A stretch of 35,259 bases of DNA, from the NCBI GenBank assembly GCA_028715605.1, contig JAQURM010000015.1, positions 1 through 35,259 on the forward strand, written 5' to 3'. This DNA is from Desulfovibrionales bacterium. Its GTDB lineage: Bacteria > Desulfobacterota > QYQD01. Under the pieces are notes generated by a model. The model did no database searches and was not told the DNA's origin. It was given only the letters and a program-made list of their open reading frames with translations. Below, one piece after another: positions 2,232 to 15,671 of the stretch (positions within the stretch are counted from its first letter, which is position 1; each line of letters starts with the position of its first letter). The position numbers and the translations under genes are program-made.

Positions 2232-2264
2232 AGCTTGACAAGCTCCAGCCATTTTATATAGAAT
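2232..2264 (+). promoter_or_regulatory. Sigma-70-type promoter with dyad over the -35 box, upstream of cytochrome gene
   Basis: A perfect -35 TTGACA (2235-2240) and a near-consensus -10 TAGAAT (2259-2264) are 18 bases apart, which predicts a transcription start near 2271. The -35 box is embedded in the 13-base dyad AGCTTG-A-CAAGCT (2232-2244), a plausible repressor or activator site. The hairpin CGGGCT/AGCCCG (2193-2198 and 2217-2222) lies just upstream. Predicted from sequence only. Confidence 0.6.
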
Positions 2265-2270
2265 TTGCGA

Positions 2271-2486
2271 AGTGTGTGACTCCGTAACTACCCGGTCTTG
2301 ACAGGTAAGACGCCTGCCTAACTATTTTTAAGGTGATGGTATTCGAGTAATCCGGCCGGGTAAATCAGGCGTCTAAGTAGATAAAGCAATCAGCGTTCAG
2401 CTATCAGCAGTCAGCTTAAGGCTGAGGGCGGGTAGCCTCTTTTGTTTCGTCAGTTGTTGAATTTAACAAGAAAGGAGGTGAAAAAG
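2271..2486 (+). promoter_or_regulatory. Long structured 5' leader of the cytochrome gene, pseudoknot-like
   Basis: The predicted leader is about 215 bases long. Near its 5' end four complementary blocks are interleaved: TACCCGG (2289-2295) pairs with CCGGGTA (2356-2362), and AGACGCCTG (2308-2316) pairs with CAGGCGTCT (2366-2374). The order A-B-A'-B' is that of an H-type pseudoknot. A competing small hairpin, GTCTT (2295-2299) with AAGAC (2307-2311), would break both long stems, so alternative folds are possible. It does not match a riboswitch class I know; GEMM, fluoride and guanidine-III consensus elements were considered. A repeat copy (2380-2408) and a strong ribosome binding site (AAAGGAGGTG, about 2471-2480) follow. 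Confidence 0.4.
2380..2408 (+). repeat. Dispersed TCAGCTATCAGC-type repeat, copy 2
   Basis: Direct copy of the module at 2008-2034 (ATAAAGCAATCAGCGTTCAG followed by CTATCAGC), differing at a few positions. The two copies flank the predicted promoter and structured leader of the cytochrome gene. Confidence 0.7.
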
Positions 2487-3266: not shown

Positions 3267-4646
3267 ATGATTTCACCGGCTACATTATCTAAGATCGAAA
3301 ACATCATCGGCAAAAAAAACCTCCTTACCTCTCAGGAGGATCGTATTTGCTATGCCTATGACGCTACCAATCTCTTCCACATGCCGGACGCTGTGGCCAT
3401 CCCTGGAACAGCAGAAGAGATAGAAGCTATTATGCAACTCGCCAACCGGGAAAAATTTCCGGTCACACCCCGCGGAGCCGGAACCGGCATGACCGGGGGC
3501 GCTCTGGCGATAAATGGAGGACTGGTCCTGGCGCTCACCCGGCTTAACCGTATCCTGGAAATTGATACGCAAAACCTGATAGCGGTGGTAGAACCAGGGG
3601 TAATAACCGGTGACTTGCAAAGGGAGGCAGAAAAGGTCGGCCTTTTTTACCCCCCAGATCCATCCAGCCTCAAGTTTTCTACTATAGGCGGAAATGTGGC
3701 TGAATGTGCCGGCGGCGCCCGGGCCGTTAAGTACGGTGTCACTAAAGATTATGTAACCGGTCTGGAAGTGGCGCTGCCCACCGGCGGGATTATTAGGACG
3801 GGTGCGCGCACCCGAAAAGGTGTGGTGGGGTATGACTTAACCAAGCTCTTTGTAGGCTCTGAGGGGACACTGGGAATCATTACCAGGATTATTCTGAAGT
3901 TACTCCCTTTGCCGGAGGCCCGGAAGACCCTGTTAGCTGTATTTGACAGACTGGATACGGCTATGCAGACCGTCTCCGGTATCATCAGCGCCCGAATTAT
4001 ACCGGCGGCTCTGGAATTCATGGATCAGACCGCTATCTCCTGTGTTGAAGACTACCTTCGTCTAGGGCTACCCAGGGAAGCCGGGGCGCTGCTTTTAATA
4101 GAAGTGGACGGCCGTAAAGAGGCGGTAGAAGCGGAGGCAGACACAATCTGCCAACTATGTGAAAAAATGGGGGCCCGCGATATCCGGACAGCCGGAAACG
4201 AAAGCGAAGCAACCCTCCTGTGGCAGGCACGCCGGGCCGTCTCTCCGGCCCTGTTTAAACTTAAACCCCATAAAATAAGCGAAGATATTGTCGTCCCGCG
4301 CAGCCGCATAGCAGAGATGGTTTCCCGCGCTAAGGCCATAGGTACGGAAAACGGCTTAATCGTCCTCTGTTTTGGCCATGCCGGAGATGGTAATATCCAT
4401 ATAAATATTATGATCGACCGGGAAGACAGGGTTGAGTTGCAGAGGGCCCAAAGGGCCAAGGAGCAGATATTCCGAACCGCCTTAGAATTGGGAGGGACAT
4501 TATCGGGTGAGCACGGCATCGGCATAACGAAATCACCCTTTCTGGGGCTTGAACTCAGCCCCCTGGCTGTCGAGACCATGAAGAAGATAAAGGCAGCGCT
4601 CGATCCTAAAAATATTTTAAATCCTGGAAAGGTATTCCCATATTGA
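3267..4646 (+). CDS. GlcD/D-lactate dehydrogenase-type FAD-linked oxidase
   Basis: A 459-residue flavoprotein of the GlcD/VAO family that oxidises 2-hydroxy acids such as glycolate or D-lactate. The N-terminal FAD_binding_4 domain has PRGAGTGMTGGALA and CAGGARAVKYGVTKDYVTG, followed by VGSEGTLGIITR. The C-terminal FAD-oxidase domain has CFGHAGDGNIHINIM and ends with GEHGIGITKSPFL and NPGKVFPY, all family signatures. No Fe-S domain is fused, and no GlcF/LutA-type partner lies nearby, so the electron acceptor is unknown. No clear ribosome binding site precedes the ATG at 3267; the preceding bases are repeat sequence. The stop overlaps the kinase start (TTGA), so the oxidase is co-translated with a two-component system. 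Substrate is not decided by the sequence. Confidence 0.9.
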   Translation: MISPATLSKIENIIGKKNLLTSQEDRICYAYDATNLFHMPDAVAIPGTAEEIEAIMQLANREKFPVTPRGAGTGMTGGALAINGGLVLALTRLNRILEIDTQNLIAVVEPGVITGDLQREAEKVGLFYPPDPSSLKFSTIGGNVAECAGGARAVKYGVTKDYVTGLEVALPTGGIIRTGARTRKGVVGYDLTKLFVGSEGTLGIITRIILKLLPLPEARKTLLAVFDRLDTAMQTVSGIISARIIPAALEFMDQTAISCVEDYLRLGLPREAGALLLIEVDGRKEAVEAEADTICQLCEKMGARDIRTAGNESEATLLWQARRAVSPALFKLKPHKISEDIVVPRSRIAEMVSRAKAIGTENGLIVLCFGHAGDGNIHINIMIDREDRVELQRAQRAKEQIFRTALELGGTLSGEHGIGITKSPFLGLELSPLAVETMKKIKAALDPKNILNPGKVFPY

Positions 4647-6718
4647 GCCGGGAAAACCATAGATCCGCCGGGGCGGGCTTGTCAGCTACAGGGACTTCAA
4701 ATCACCTGGAGCGGACTATAGTTATTATAGCCGTAGTCGTCTTTTTCCCTACTGTCCTCTTCCTACGCTATTTACATGATACCGGGATTACGCTATCAAT
4801 AACAAAAGTATTCCCCCCCCTGCATCTCGTTGCTGAATTTTTAGGTGTATTTGTCTCCATATCCCTTTTTTTGCTGGCCTGGCATACCTATCCCGACCGG
4901 CGGGACACGTTCATATTATCTCTGGGAAATGCCTTTCTGCTGGTTGGCCTTTTGAGCCTGCTCCATATCATGCACTACCAGGAAAGTCTTACCCCTATCA
5001 AAAACAACGGGTTACTAAACAATCCCCTTTGTTTTTATGCTATGGGTCAACTTTTGTTGCCGTTAGGTCTTCTGTTCAGTATATTCGCGGTGGGCAGGAC
5101 ATTTTCGACACGCAGACGTCTTCACTATTTATTAGGAGTTCTCGTTCTCCTCACTCTGATAGTGGGCGCCGGCTCGTACCTGTCGTGCCATAGGCAGATT
5201 CGCCTAGGCGAAAAAGCCCACCAATCTGCCCTCTCGCCAATAAATGCGGACCGCCTTATCAACCGGGATTTCTTGACCGTACCCCTTTACGCCGTGGCTA
5301 TGTACCTCTGCTATAAGAAAAAACTGTTTACCGAATCCAAATCCAATGCCTTATTCCTGGGCGCCCTGGCCCTGCTGGCATACAGCGAGGCCTTGAGCAG
5401 CGGATTATGCTTCCAGTGTGAGGACTGCCCGCTAATAAATCACAATCCCTTTTCTCATTTCTTCATAATCGCGGCTTATGGCACTATCTATTGGGTAGTC
5501 TTTGTCTCATCTATTCGCTATCCGTATAAGACACTTTATGCGGTTAAAGAAGACCTCTCCGAAAAATATCAGGAACTTTCCGCCGCCCTGGAGATGCTAA
5601 AACAATCGGAAGAACGGTACCGCTTGCTGGTTGAAAACTCAAATGACTTGATATACACTCTCGACTCATACAGTCGCATTACCTTTGTAAACCAGAACAT
5701 AAGTGTTTTGACCGGTTATACGCCTGCCGAGTTACGTGGTAAAAGTGTTTTTGACATCCTTACTCCGGAGTCGCAAAAAAAGGCCATAGCGCAGATCAGG
5801 ACGCTGGTGAAGACCAGCCGTGCCCTGGTTGAAGACCTGGAAATACTGGCTAAGAATGGTGGGGGGAAAACCATTATGGTCAATATCCAGCCCATACATG
5901 ACGCCGAAGGTAAGATAACCGGATTTCAGGGTATAGCCAGAGACATTTCCGAACGCAGACAACAACGGGAACAGATGATCCACTCCGAAAAACTGGCTAC
6001 GGTGGGGCTTATTGCCTCGGGTATTGCCCATGAAATCGGTACGCCCTTGAACATTATCTCCGGTAACGCCGAGTTTCTCTTGGCCGACCTTCCTGATCAG
6101 CATCCCATGCGGGAAGAGTTAGAGACCATAATCGATCAGTGCCAGAGGATATCCGACCAGGTTAAGAATCTCCTGGATTTTGCCCGTCCTTCGTCCTTAG
6201 AGTTTGCCCCGTTAAATATAAACGAGATCATTCATGACACCCTCCGCCTTTTAAAACATATGATTAAACCGGGTCATAACATACAACTGAATTTAACCCC
6301 GGACCTGCCGCCCTTAATGGGTGATAAATACAGGCTGCGACAACTATTCACCAATCTCCTTTTGAATGCCTTTCAGTCCATGCCCACGACTGGGTCTTTG
6401 CAAATAAACACCGCTCTATTATCAGCATCCACCGCTTCCAGGATAGAGACGCCGTGTATCTGTATACAGATAAAGGATTCCGGTCGCGGCATTGAAAAAG
6501 AAAATCTAAAATCCATATTTGACCCCTTTTTTACTACCAAGGCCATGGGCCAGGGAACCGGTCTGGGACTGGCCGTTTGCCTGAGGATAGTCAAAGATCA
6601 CGCGGGTGGCATCGAGGTAGAAAGCGAGGTTAATAGGGGCGCTACATTTACAATCCATCTTCCACTGCGTGCACCTCTGAAGGACAGCGGAACGGAGGAG
6701 ACCATTAGCCATGTCTGA
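4643..6718 (+). CDS. MASE3-like membrane sensor histidine kinase with PAS domain
   Basis: A 691-residue kinase. Residues 20-300 hold about seven or eight hydrophobic segments with the MASE3-like signature HTYPDRRDTFILSLGNAFLL. A short loop contains a Cys cluster, CFQCEDC, unusual for the domain and possibly redox- or metal-active. A coiled linker leads to a PAS domain (about 325-430, SEERYRLLVENSNDLIYTLD). The HisKA domain has the phospho-acceptor His463 in IAHEIGTPLN. The HATPase domain has the N box (NLLLNAFQS), DSGRGIEKEN and GQGTGLGLAV. The start is a TTG overlapping the oxidase stop by four bases, and the end overlaps the regulator by eight. It very probably phosphorylates the adjacent NtrC-type regulator. 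The signal is not known; a product or substrate of the oxidase is a guess from context. Confidence 0.9.
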   Translation: MSRENHRSAGAGLSATGTSNHLERTIVIIAVVVFFPTVLFLRYLHDTGITLSITKVFPPLHLVAEFLGVFVSISLFLLAWHTYPDRRDTFILSLGNAFLLVGLLSLLHIMHYQESLTPIKNNGLLNNPLCFYAMGQLLLPLGLLFSIFAVGRTFSTRRRLHYLLGVLVLLTLIVGAGSYLSCHRQIRLGEKAHQSALSPINADRLINRDFLTVPLYAVAMYLCYKKKLFTESKSNALFLGALALLAYSEALSSGLCFQCEDCPLINHNPFSHFFIIAAYGTIYWVVFVSSIRYPYKTLYAVKEDLSEKYQELSAALEMLKQSEERYRLLVENSNDLIYTLDSYSRITFVNQNISVLTGYTPAELRGKSVFDILTPESQKKAIAQIRTLVKTSRALVEDLEILAKNGGGKTIMVNIQPIHDAEGKITGFQGIARDISERRQQREQMIHSEKLATVGLIASGIAHEIGTPLNIISGNAEFLLADLPDQHPMREELETIIDQCQRISDQVKNLLDFARPSSLEFAPLNINEIIHDTLRLLKHMIKPGHNIQLNLTPDLPPLMGDKYRLRQLFTNLLLNAFQSMPTTGSLQINTALLSASTASRIETPCICIQIKDSGRGIEKENLKSIFDPFFTTKAMGQGTGLGLAVCLRIVKDHAGGIEVESEVNRGATFTIHLPLRAPLKDSGTEETISHV

Positions 6719-8072
6719 TGTCCCCTATTCCGTACTCATCGTTGATGATGACGTGCAAATGACCATTATGCTCAGGAAGGTATTAGAAAAAGAAGGTTAT
6801 GACGTGGAAACCGCCCTTGACGGGCAGGACGCCATGGCTAACTCCGCTGTGGGAGATATCGACCTGGTAATCACTGATATCCGCATGCCGGGGATGGATG
6901 GCCTGGAATTCCTAAAAAGGATAAGGGAAAATCATCAGGATGTCCCGGTTATACTTATGACCGCCTTTGGTTCTATCGAGGCCGCAGTGGAGTCCATGAA
7001 AAAGGGGGCTTACCACTACATAGCCAAGCCGTTTAAAACACAGCAATTCCTGTCTGTGGTACAAGCCGCCCTCCGGGAGCGAAGGCTCCAGCTTGAAGTA
7101 GCCGGCTTGCGCCAGGAAATAACGAAAGAGTTTTGTTTCTCAAACATTATCGGGAAAAGCCCGGTCATGCAGGAGTTATTTTCCCTGATCCGACGTGTGG
7201 CCAGGGCCAAAAGCACCGTCATAATCTACGGGAAGAGCGGCACCGGCAAGGAACTCGTGGCCAGGGCCCTGCATTATAACAGTCCCCGTGCGGATAAACC
7301 ATTTGTCGCCTTCAATTGCGCGGCCATACCCGAGACCCTTCTGGAAACAGAGCTTTTTGGTCACGCCCGGGGGGCCTTTACCGATGCCAGGCATGCCAAA
7401 ATGGGCCTTTTTGTCGAAGCAGATGGCGGGACCTTGTTCCTGGATGAAATTGGCGATATGCCTGTTTCCATTCAGGGCAAGTTGCTCCGGGCTATCCAGG
7501 AGAGGGAAATCCGGCCGGTAGGCGCGACGAAAGATATTAAAATCGACGTAAGACTTGTCGCGGCTACACACCATGATCTCCAACAATTACTTAAAGAAGG
7601 GAAAATACGGGAAGACCTCTATTTCCGGTTAAACGTAGTCCCCATAAGCCTCCCGGAATTAAAGGACCGCAAAGAAGACATCCCCCTGCTGGTGAGACAC
7701 TTTCTTAAGAAACATGCCACAGAGAACAACCAAAAGCCGCTTGGTGTCTCAAAAGAAGCGATGCGCATTCTTATGGAATATGCCTGGCCGGGAAACGTCC
7801 GGGAGCTGGAAAATGTCCTGGAACGGGCAGCCATCCTCACCGAAGGCCCCGTGATCCAGACTGAAAACCTGCCCGAGGGTCTTCGCTCAGCCCCCTATGC
7901 GTCCGGCAAAGAAATACCCATAACTTCCAGTTTAGAAAATCTGGAGAAAAAACATATCCAGGATATACTCAACGTAACCCGCGGGAACCAATCGGAGGCT
8001 GCGAAGATATTGGGAATCGATCGCCGCACCCTTTATCGCAAGATAAAGGCCTACAATCTGCATATAACCTAA
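6711..8072 (+). CDS. NtrC-family sigma-54-dependent response regulator
   Basis: A 453-residue protein. The receiver domain (1-125) has the acidic pocket VDDD, phospho-acceptor Asp56 (VITDIRMPGMDG), Thr84 and Lys106. The AAA+ domain has Walker A GKSGTGKE (174-181) and Walker B TLFLDEIGD. The sigma-54 contact loop reads GAFTDA (221-226) rather than the usual GAFTGA, a variant seen in some family members. A Fis-type helix-turn-helix (GNQSEAAKILGIDRRTLYRK) ends the protein. It is the cognate partner of the upstream kinase, with an eight-base overlap. Dyad sites just downstream (8078-8185) are candidate binding sites. The DNA target and physiological role are not shown by sequence alone. Confidence 0.94.
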   Translation: MSDVPYSVLIVDDDVQMTIMLRKVLEKEGYDVETALDGQDAMANSAVGDIDLVITDIRMPGMDGLEFLKRIRENHQDVPVILMTAFGSIEAAVESMKKGAYHYIAKPFKTQQFLSVVQAALRERRLQLEVAGLRQEITKEFCFSNIIGKSPVMQELFSLIRRVARAKSTVIIYGKSGTGKELVARALHYNSPRADKPFVAFNCAAIPETLLETELFGHARGAFTDARHAKMGLFVEADGGTLFLDEIGDMPVSIQGKLLRAIQEREIRPVGATKDIKIDVRLVAATHHDLQQLLKEGKIREDLYFRLNVVPISLPELKDRKEDIPLLVRHFLKKHATENNQKPLGVSKEAMRILMEYAWPGNVRELENVLERAAILTEGPVIQTENLPEGLRSAPYASGKEIPITSSLENLEKKHIQDILNVTRGNQSEAAKILGIDRRTLYRKIKAYNLHIT

Positions 8073-12384: not shown

Positions 12385-14412
12385 ATGCATAGCGTCTTAA
12401 CCACCTGCCCTTTCTGTGCCTGCGGCTGCGGATTATATCTGCACGTAGAAAACGGGAGGATAGTGGGTGTCACTCCCAGTAAAAAACACCCCATCTCCCG
12501 CGGCAACCTGTGCGTGAAGGGATGGAACAGTATAGAGCACGTCCGGCATGCGGAGCGGCTGCGCGAACCATTGATCCGAAAAAACGGAAAACTGGTCAAG
12601 ACCGGCTGGGACCAGGCCCTAAAGCGCATCTCCCATGAACTTCTCAGGCTTAAAAAAAATTATGGGGGCGAATCCATAGGCATACTCTCCTCGGCCAAAT
12701 GCACCAATGAAGAAAATTATCTCTTAATGAAGCTCGGCCGCACCATTCTAAAAACCAACAACATCGACCATTGCGCCCGCCTCTGCCACTCTCCCAGCGT
12801 CCTGGGGTTGACCAATGCCTTTGGTTCCGGGGCCATGACCAACTCCATCTCTGAACTGGCCGGGGCCGAGGTCATCCTGGTCACCGGCTCTAACACCACT
12901 GAACAACACCCGCAGATTGCCCGCTTCATATTCGAGGCCCTGGACAAAGGCGCCAAACTGATCGTCATAGACCCCAGACGCATCGAACTCAGCAAATTCG
13001 CCCATATCTATCTAAGACCCCGCCTGGGTACAGACGTAATATGGCTGAACGGCATGATGAAAATCATCCTGGATGAAGGGCTGGTAGATGACTCTTTTAT
13101 CAAGATGCGCACAGAGAATTTCTCAGAATTCAGGAAATTCCTCTCCCGTTTCGACCTAGGCCAGGTGGAGGCGATAAGCGGCATATCTCTGGAAGACCTG
13201 AGACAGGCCGCCAAGATGTATGCCGGCGCCAAAAGGGCCATTATTATATATTCCATGGGGATTACCCAGCATGTTTCCGGCACGGACAACGTGGAGTCCA
13301 TCGCCAACCTGGCCATGATGACCGGCCACGTAGAACAGGAAATTACCGGTGTATTTCCCTTGCGCGGGCAAAACAACGTACAGGGGGCCTGTGATATGGG
13401 CGCCCTGCCCGGAATGCTGAGCGGCTACCAGAGGGTTGATGATCCGGCAGTTCTGGATAAATTTTCACAGGCCTGGAATACCGATCTGCCTACCGCCCCT
13501 GGTTTAAGCAGTGTGGATATGCTCCATGAGACAGGGAGAATAAAGGGGATGTTTATCATGGGAGAAAACTCCATGTTAAGTCATCCGGATATGAAAAACG
13601 TCAGGACTTCCTTAGAAAACCTGGATTTTCTGGCCGTGGCGGATATCTTCCTTACCGAAACCGCGGAAGTCGCAGACGTGGTCCTGCCCGCCGCCGCCTT
13701 TGCCGAGAAAGATGGCACGGTAACCAGTACGGAGCGGCGCATTCAGAGGATGCGAAAGGCCGTCCCGCCCGTCCACCTAGCTAAACCGGACTGGCAGATA
13801 ATTATCGAGCTGGCCCGGCACATGGGATACCCCATGGACTACGAATCTCCGGCCGAGGTCATGGAGGAAATCGCCTTGCTCACCCCCATCTATGGGGGCG
13901 TTTATTATGATCGGCTGGAGACAGTCCAGGGGCTACAATGGCCATGTCCCGATCGCAACCATCCCGGAACGCCATATCTGCACAAAAAATCATTTGCGCG
14001 GGGTAAGGGGCTATTTTCCTGTATCGCTTACCGGCCGCCGGACGAATCACCTGATAAGGAATATCCCTTTGCCTTGACAACGGGACGCGTCTATGAGCAC
14101 TGGCATACCGGCAGTATGACCAGAAGGATATCCATACTGAAACGAGAATGCCCGGAAGGGTTTATAGAAATAAGCCCCGCAGATGCGCGGGCATTGGGAA
14201 TAATAAATGGAGAGCCGGTCAAGGTCATCTCGCCTCGCGGAGAGGTAGTTACCAGGGCCAGATTAGTCGAGGGCCTCCCCGGTAAAATGCTCTTTATGCC
14301 CTTCCACTTCCGGGAAGCCCCGGCCAATGTATTGACCAACAATGCCGTCGATCCCCAGGCCCGGATACCGGAGCTGAAGATATGCGCCGTGCGTCTGGAA
14401 AAGGTGAAATGA
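12385..14412 (+). CDS. Molybdopterin formate dehydrogenase catalytic subunit, Cys type
   Basis: A 675-residue molybdopterin oxidoreductase of the FdhF/FdhA type. It carries one [4Fe-4S] cluster on Cys8, Cys11, Cys15 and Cys43 (TCPFCACGCG, NLCVKG). The active-site motif ARLCHSPSVLG places a Cys (TGC codon) at residue 134 where many relatives have selenocysteine, followed by the invariant His135. Molybdopterin-binding blocks VTGSNTTEQHP, VIDPRRIE and GMFIMGENSMLSHPD follow, and a C-terminal dinucleotide-binding domain includes TTGRVYEHWHTGSMTRR. There is no twin-arginine signal, so it acts in the cytoplasm. AGAGGAA precedes the ATG. It overlaps the next gene, whose product and the third subunit would pass electrons on to NAD(P). 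Formate as substrate is inferred from the CH motif and family; specificity is not proven. Confidence 0.88.
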   Translation: MHSVLTTCPFCACGCGLYLHVENGRIVGVTPSKKHPISRGNLCVKGWNSIEHVRHAERLREPLIRKNGKLVKTGWDQALKRISHELLRLKKNYGGESIGILSSAKCTNEENYLLMKLGRTILKTNNIDHCARLCHSPSVLGLTNAFGSGAMTNSISELAGAEVILVTGSNTTEQHPQIARFIFEALDKGAKLIVIDPRRIELSKFAHIYLRPRLGTDVIWLNGMMKIILDEGLVDDSFIKMRTENFSEFRKFLSRFDLGQVEAISGISLEDLRQAAKMYAGAKRAIIIYSMGITQHVSGTDNVESIANLAMMTGHVEQEITGVFPLRGQNNVQGACDMGALPGMLSGYQRVDDPAVLDKFSQAWNTDLPTAPGLSSVDMLHETGRIKGMFIMGENSMLSHPDMKNVRTSLENLDFLAVADIFLTETAEVADVVLPAAAFAEKDGTVTSTERRIQRMRKAVPPVHLAKPDWQIIIELARHMGYPMDYESPAEVMEEIALLTPIYGGVYYDRLETVQGLQWPCPDRNHPGTPYLHKKSFARGKGLFSCIAYRPPDESPDKEYPFALTTGRVYEHWHTGSMTRRISILKRECPEGFIEISPADARALGIINGEPVKVISPRGEVVTRARLVEGLPGKMLFMPFHFREAPANVLTNNAVDPQARIPELKICAVRLEKVK

Positions 14413-15671
14413 TGACCGATAAACTCATCCTGTACAAAGAACACCTGAACAGCTTCCTGCGCAAGATAACCAAGGGATTTGAACTCATAGCGCCGGTCCG
14501 GAATACCTATGGGGATACGTTATTCGAGGTTATTTCATCTGTAGATGATGTCCGTATCGATCTGACCAATCGACCCATCCTCTCTCCCAAGCGTTTCTTC
14601 ATGCCACAAGTGGAGACACTTTTTGCGTACCGTTATGATAAATCCGGTTATACATTCAAAGATGCGGCAGACAGTACGCCCCGGGTCATTTTCGGCCTTC
14701 GCTCCTGTGACACGCGGGGAATACTCTTTTACGACCTGATCTTTCAGGAAGGCCTGAAGGACAAATATTACCTGGACCGGCGCAAGGATACCATCCTTAT
14801 CAACTTAGGCTGCAATCAGCCCGGAGAAAACTGCTTCTGCAAGAGCGCCCAGAGCGGCCCTTTTTTGACTTACGGCTATGATATCCAGTTAACAGATCTC
14901 GGGGATAGATTCTTTGTGGAGAACGGCCGGCCGCGGGGCCGGGAACTCCTGGCCGGATGGTCTTACTTTTTCCGTCCGGCTACGCAAACGGACATAGACG
15001 CGCAGTATGAGGTAGTCCTGGAATCGGAGGGTAAATTCCGGCACCGCCTCGATTTCGATGCCGCCATAGAAAAACTCATAAACCAGGAGGTTGCGCCGGC
15101 TATATGGGAAGAACTGGGCAGCCGCTGTCAGAACTGCGGAGGCTGTGCCTATGTCTGCCCCACCTGCTACTGCTTCAATATATTCGATAGCCCAGGTTCC
15201 GAGAAAGAAGGGGAACGCCTCAGAACCTGGGATGCCTGCACCTTTGCCGGCTTTAGCAGATTGGCCGGAGGATACAACCCGCGTCAGGATAAGGCCCAAC
15301 GGATAAAAAGGCGCTTTTATCACAAGTTGTTCTATGACAAACAGAAGTATAACATCCCCAGTTGCGTGGGCTGCGGCCGCTGCGCGGACATCTGTTTTGG
15401 CCGTATAGACATGCTCAGCTTCATCCGCCTGATCTGTGAACAGAAAGAGAGGGCGCTTGCCCCCGCCCATCGGAGACTAGGGGAACTGCTCCTTGAGGCC
15501 GGGATCATCAGCCGGAAAGATTTGGATTTGGCAATAGAGAAACAGGCTGCGACCGGGAAGCCCCTGGGCGCTCAATTGGTTGAAATGGGTATGGTGGATA
15601 AGGAGGCGATTGCCAGGGCACTTGGCTGCCAACTGAAGATACCCGGCACAGCAGAAAATATAGAAGACTAA
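14412..15671 (+). CDS. Sulfhydrogenase-beta-like Fe-S subunit with MshEN-like C-terminal domain
   Basis: A 419-residue subunit similar to HydB of sulfhydrogenases and AsrA of anaerobic sulfite reductase. These proteins relay electrons between a flavin subunit and a catalytic subunit. Residues 1-230 form the family domain (IFGLRSCDTRGILFYD, NLGCNQPGENCFCKS). Two [4Fe-4S] motifs follow: Cys239/242/245/249 (CQNCGGCAYVC) and Cys318/321/324/328 (CVGCGRCADIC). Residues about 355-412 (LGELLLEAGIISRKDLDLAI, then EMGMVDKEAIARALG) look like an added MshEN/T2SSE-N domain, known from PilB and GspE ATPases, some of which bind c-di-GMP. This extension is not part of the usual HydB/AsrA layout. The ATG at 14412 overlaps the upstream stop and is preceded by AAGGTG. 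The fusion is visible in sequence; its role is unknown. Confidence 0.85.
   Translation: MTDKLILYKEHLNSFLRKITKGFELIAPVRNTYGDTLFEVISSVDDVRIDLTNRPILSPKRFFMPQVETLFAYRYDKSGYTFKDAADSTPRVIFGLRSCDTRGILFYDLIFQEGLKDKYYLDRRKDTILINLGCNQPGENCFCKSAQSGPFLTYGYDIQLTDLGDRFFVENGRPRGRELLAGWSYFFRPATQTDIDAQYEVVLESEGKFRHRLDFDAAIEKLINQEVAPAIWEELGSRCQNCGGCAYVCPTCYCFNIFDSPGSEKEGERLRTWDACTFAGFSRLAGGYNPRQDKAQRIKRRFYHKLFYDKQKYNIPSCVGCGRCADICFGRIDMLSFIRLICEQKERALAPAHRRLGELLLEAGIISRKDLDLAIEKQAATGKPLGAQLVEMGMVDKEAIARALGCQLKIPGTAENIED

Follow-up and report, generated by a model that had tools for sequence, protein, structure and literature searches.

In Geobacter, which carries 17 GEMM-I riboswitches (PMC8835794), riboswitch signalling through cGAMP controls extracellular metal respiration (PMC6456294). 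Among repetitive palindromes, the GTAG-tagged REP super-family includes tail-tail dimers whose GTAG ends face inwards (PMC3733652). Together with orphan cis-regulatory motifs of the 5'-UTR, these are the described systems closest to the locus that we analysed here, which lies ahead of a cytochrome gene in a window of 35,259 nucleotides (contig JAQURM010000015.1, assembly GCA_028715605.1), itself part of a 2.56-Mb Desulfovibrionales genome. An earlier note on this DNA had proposed a strong promoter followed by a pseudoknot-like regulatory RNA leader. The features to which we refer throughout are the following.

2224-2262, + strand: conserved promoter block AATCTTTT (five-species alignment; 11/12 consensus)
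2263-2285, + strand: predicted transcription start region and leader 5' end, differing between species in sequence and, through indels of 8-9 bases, in length
2286-2307, + strand: 5' third of the core, which includes the stem A 5' strand (2289-2295); 5 changes vs 8.2 expected
2300-2322, + strand: REP-like palindrome, hairpin H1 (GACAGG-loop-CCTGCC, 2300-2305/2313-2318), akin to the dispersed repeat GACAGGCGAGACGCCTGTCCTAC
2307-2376, + strand: near-invariant 70-nt leader element, a predicted three-way junction (constraint in columns 23-89; shuffle z)
2308-2316, + strand: P1 5' strand AGACGCCTG, paired without mismatch and invariant in 5/5 species
2321-2326, + strand: P2 5' strand (partner 2335-2340, loop 2327-2334; 100% of cells paired)
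2335-2340, + strand: P2 3' strand, pairing with 2321-2326
2341-2346, + strand: P3 5' strand (partner 2356-2361; 96.7% of cells paired)
2356-2361, + strand: P3 3' strand, doubling as the stem A 3' strand, the two pairings being mutually exclusive
2366-2374, + strand: P1 3' strand CAGGCGTCT, pairing with 2308-2316
2377-2437, + strand: unconserved spacer holding a dispersed repeat (a MITE-like insertion in relative G002)
2438-2486, + strand: conserved RBS-proximal block (TTGTTGAATTTAACAA and AAAGGAGGTG; alignments)
2487-2900, + strand: cytochrome c3 gene (four CxxCH motifs, 137 aa)

Results

The gene downstream of the leader was expected to encode a multiheme cytochrome, and its 137-residue product is indeed a cytochrome c3 (Pfam PF02085, E 2e-13) with all four CxxCH motifs. 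Cytochrome c3 is commonly a periplasmic electron carrier in sulfate reducers. Upstream, mltG (909-1958) is followed by the intergenic stretch that holds the promoter and the core, and a glcD-like gene begins downstream at 3267; the order mltG, promoter, core, cytochrome, glcD-like is the same in the relatives, as far as their contigs extend. Several neighbours were recorded in passing. A MITE-like element (TAGTTACTATCCGGGAAC ... TTTCCGGATGAAAACTA, 1956-2170) sits directly 3' of the mltG stop codon, and a relative of it with the same terminal inverted repeats is found in the G002 leader, between core and RBS. Immediately 3' of the glcD-like gene, 4643-8072 encodes an AtoS-like histidine kinase and an AtoC/NtrC-like sigma-54 response regulator, and 14382-15668 encodes a sulfhydrogenase/AsrA-like beta subunit in which residues 365-415 form a C-terminal, MshE-related cyclic di-GMP-binding domain (NF053729).

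Each of the five sequenced species of the genus has the promoter and leader, and their five genomes are all those available for its class; in every one the element lies between the predicted promoter and the start codon of this same cytochrome c3 gene. Three blocks are kept, namely the promoter, the core and the 50 bases nearest the RBS; sequence changes, indels and repeat insertions make both the linker 3' of the promoter and the spacer 3' of the core variable. Against a neutral rate of 0.37 changes per site on the tree of the five species, estimated from 248 four-fold sites in the cytochrome and glcD-like genes only, core columns 1-22 (2286-2307) are nearly neutral (5 changes vs 8.2 expected, P 0.19), whereas columns 23-89 carry 4 changes vs 24.9 expected (P about 2e-6) and columns 39-91 a single change vs 19.7 expected (P 3e-7). 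The constrained unit is thus about 2308-2374 rather than the whole 100-base block, and the alignments indicate that the leader is under strong selection. The RBS-proximal block includes a near-palindrome, TTGTTGAATTTAACAA, that is conserved in 5/5 species.

No true homologue of the core was returned from outside the genus by BLAST or by two covariance models run over 395 genomes of the phylum, with all class members; the hits were REP palindromes or chance matches. Nor was the core found, with filters off, at 16 cytochrome loci taken from other, more distant lineages; viral contigs held no exact match to it, and within each genome it is single-copy with up to 3 mismatches allowed. Within the reach of these searches, the element appears limited to one gene in one genus.

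The promoter block shows 1 change in 36 columns where four-fold sites across the five species predict 13, and judged by this conservation the promoter is real. Its -35 box, TTGACA (2235-2240), had been paired with a -10 box TAGAAT (2259-2264) at a spacing of 18, a combination that is present and scores 11/12 against consensus. The -10 assignment calls for a correction: TAGAAT becomes TAGACT or TAAAGT in relatives, while TATATA(G/A)A (2255-2262) within the region TATATAGA is conserved, so TATAGA (2257-2262) at a spacing of 16 is an equally likely -10. The dyad noted over the -35 box, AGCTTGACAAGCT (2232-2244), is likewise real and invariant within the genus, but no regulon emerged for it, its genome-wide matches (22 vs 26 for the control) staying at background.

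Two interleaved complementary blocks had been described in the leader, and both are where they were said to be: a 9-bp block (2308-2316/2366-2374) and a 7-bp block (2289-2295/2356-2362), the sole perfect Watson-Crick stems of at least 7 bp in 2271-2385. In 5,000 dinucleotide shuffles, a post hoc test, any 9-bp stem arose in 1.4%, interleaved 7+7 stems in 0.4% and interleaved 9+7 stems in 0.04% (2/5,000). One other 115-base segment within the first 9 kb has a comparable interleaved pair, and the minimum free energy (MFE) of the whole segment 2273-2385 is ordinary (z -0.96). Comparison among species does not bear out the H-type pseudoknot that these blocks had suggested. Stem B (the 9-bp block, P1 below) is intact and invariant in 5/5 species, but the outer stem A (the 7-bp block) is mismatched at 1 pair in G002 and at 2 in G003, and its 5' strand (2289-2295) falls in the near-neutral 2286-2307. 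The competing hairpin, GTCTT (2295-2299) with complementary AAGAC (2307-2311), can pair in the window but is broken in G002 and G003.

The constrained core probably folds instead, on thermodynamic prediction, as a nested three-way junction of P1, P2 and P3, a conserved structure that differs from the pseudoknot named before. In 5/5 species the junction is the MFE fold of the 70-nt segment, with P3 slightly shifted in the window species, and in 4/5, all but G004, it is also that of the 91-nt core. The 70-nt fold is more stable than its shuffles (z -2.0 to -3.6 in the five species); over 21 pairs and 105 cells, 99% are paired, a figure for which shuffle controls were uninformative. P2 shows one compatible change, from U-G to C-G in G002, and P3 loses its tip pair (2346/2356) only in the window species. 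We also considered a small ORF within the core (ATG GTA TTC GGG TAA) and rejected it, as it has four codons, a Shine-Dalgarno sequence too close to it and a non-synonymous change in the window.

Covariation among relatives, which had been put forward as a check, gave 0 compensatory changes in the 18 pseudoknot pairs and 0 in the 21 junction pairs, at identities of 92-99% that leave almost no power. An absence of such changes in relatives was the outcome that the earlier note had named as refuting its proposal. Compensatory changes are lacking in every model because the sequences are too alike, and a protein that binds DNA or RNA could then equally account for the conserved sequence. A block conserved as DNA, serving as a regulator site downstream of the promoter with an incidental RNA fold, would fit both this conservation of primary sequence without covariation and an imperfect tandem, CGGGTAATCCGGC / CGGGTAAATCAGGC, at about 2344-2370. 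We consider this unlikely, since the core, even at up to 3 mismatches, has one copy per genome and thus defines no regulon, and since its fold beats shuffles in 5/5 species.

P3 and stem A share a strand, as do H1 and P1, so that the window and G004 leaders can adopt an alternative fold of stem A, H1 and P2, which is the MFE fold of the window's 113-nt leader and of the 91-nt core of G004. Near-invariance across 70 nt with loops and junctions included, the presence in the window of two folds that exclude each other at similar energy, and the GEMM-I precedent in Geobacter (PMC8835794, PMC6456294) all speak for a riboswitch in which the three-way junction would be the aptamer and stem A with H1 the other state, the ligand being, for example, heme or a second messenger. 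Stem A, however, is weakened in G002 and G003, and riboswitch classes usually range more widely than one gene in one genus. Rfam 15 gave no family at gathering score, the sole match (P26, E 2.5) lying outside the core; no GEMM motif was among its matches. The one terminator-like match in the window is at chance level and none is conserved. The RBS, which lies about 80 to 240 nt past the core across a variable spacer, has no evident pairing partner, as judged from this variable distance and from single folds. With neither a conserved terminator nor an RBS partner, and with the distance variable, a ligand-gated platform is unsupported; a riboswitch is conceivable, but one without a visible expression platform, and we hold it to be improbable.

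The distance from core to RBS differs between species because the spacer accommodates insertions of about 120-150 bp. In the window the spacer holds a dispersed repeat, AAAGCAATCAGCGTTCAGCTATCAGC (2380-2415), with about 18 further matches in the genome and a similar copy at 2010-2035. That promoter and core are conserved and the spacer to the cytochrome is not would also be expected of a free-standing small RNA acting in trans from its own promoter, with the cytochrome read through or separately promoted. Such an RNA should have a promoter and a terminator of its own, and here the promoter is present but no terminator 3' of the core is convincing in G000, G002 or G003. Moreover, the RBS-proximal block lacks a separate conserved promoter, and linkage to the cytochrome is 5/5, which makes this explanation doubtful.

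The arms of the leader resemble a palindrome, GACAGGCGAGACGCCTGTCCTAC, that is dispersed in these genomes. The leader matches it at 18/23 positions in the window and 20/23 in G002-G004, against 17/23 for the best of 20,000 mononucleotide shuffles. In addition, 2360-2374, which includes the P1 3' arm, resembles an inverted half copy (GTAAATCAGGCGTCT vs GTAGGACAGGCGTCT, 12/15); this half is the weaker evidence, since 9/15 positions are fixed by complementarity. With one mismatch allowed, the 15-base centre of GACAGGCGAGACGCCTGTCCTAC has 5-26 matches per genome in seven genomes (control patterns 0-5). Its copies occur as singlets and as inverted dimers, the latter in the genus and in G130, and on the other strand it begins GTAGGACAGGCG, resembling the published GTAG-tagged REP super-family. 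Y1 transposase genes were found in 7/7 genomes searched. One of these, a Y1-type gene (PF01797) in G002 (C11:1792-2058, within C11:1732-2429, locus L088), lies among GACAGGCGAGACGCCTGTCCTAC copies, with which it forms a probable RAYT-REP pair. The palindrome also accounts for matches in the homologue searches: the two genomes from another family that were hit by the first covariance model both contain it, as does the four-copy repeat that the second model hit in G130. The weak matches in G077 and G109 were rejected as core homologues, the part they share being the dispersed palindrome.

P1 and H1 seem, on these sequence resemblances, to derive from a GTAG-type REP palindrome by exaptation. That a palindrome can form pairs within itself or with an inverted copy would explain the pairing of both H1 and P1, and the interleaving and alternative hairpin noted before would have a simpler source in this similarity plus the inverted half copy. 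The same resemblance, along with the inverted dimers, the Y1 genes in all these genomes and the Y1 gene among REP copies in G002, might point to a REP/REPIN-type relic of mobile DNA without present function, whose inverted arms mimic RNA structure. That explanation is disfavoured by constraint far beyond neutral, by a middle of 36 nt that is not REP-like and by fixation of the same copy at the same site in five species, and we regard it as very unlikely.

Discussion

What survives of the regulatory RNA leader first proposed is a conserved promoter with a constrained, foldable leader in 5/5 species; the pseudoknot and the competing hairpin are not supported. We tentatively favour, at somewhat short of even confidence, a promoter and three-way-junction leader of REP descent with long-range cis action on the cytochrome mRNA. 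In this model, a sigma-70-type promoter (2224-2262) would give the cytochrome c3 mRNA a leader of about 215 nt. The constrained core (2307-2376) would fold as a three-way junction in which P1 closes the 6-bp hairpins P2 and P3, with P1 and the competing H1 as apparent relics of a GTAG-type REP palindrome and its inverted half copy. The REP-derived arms would have been fixed upstream of the cytochrome in the ancestor of the genus and retained for a function. Since the distance from core to RBS is not preserved, with mobile repeats inserted between them, action at a distance is most likely, rather than RBS masking; the leader may be a cis-acting 5' structure that governs how long the mRNA lasts or to which a protein binds. 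Of these, mRNA stability is a function that we infer largely by exclusion. The chief competitors of this model are an RNA acting in trans and a site acting as DNA.

The leader is a credible new control element, a probably structured 5' leader specific to the genus. If functional, it would add a regulatory RNA to cytochrome c3 and offer a traceable case of a repeat palindrome becoming leader RNA, with a narrow reach of a single gene in a single genus. The bolder proposal, that a mobile REP palindrome has been domesticated into a new class of regulatory leader RNA, a switchable three-way junction controlling a cytochrome c3 in a bacterial class of one genus, strikes us as unlikely.

Like the c-di-GMP and cGAMP riboswitches of the GEMM-I class in Geobacter, this leader too would be structured and would control an electron-transfer gene; it differs from them in being a three-way junction with no Rfam match and no terminator. 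With GTAG REP/REPIN elements, associated with RAYT/TnpA_REP, it shares arms (GACAGG..GACGCCTG(T/C)C and the inverted GTAAATCAGGCGTCT) that resemble the palindrome of the genus, GTAG-like ends that would point inwards in the manner of tail-tail dimers (PMC3733652), and genomes in which Y1 transposases are present. In contrast to such elements, its tags are degenerate (YAAC and GTAA in place of GTAG/CTAC), its core is single-copy rather than dispersed, though the related palindrome is multicopy, its 3' copy is only a half, its spacer is not REP-like, and the whole is constrained in the leader. Orphan cis-regulatory 5'-UTR motifs resemble it in their conserved leader fold and narrow range, with the difference that the arms here can be traced to a repeat family.
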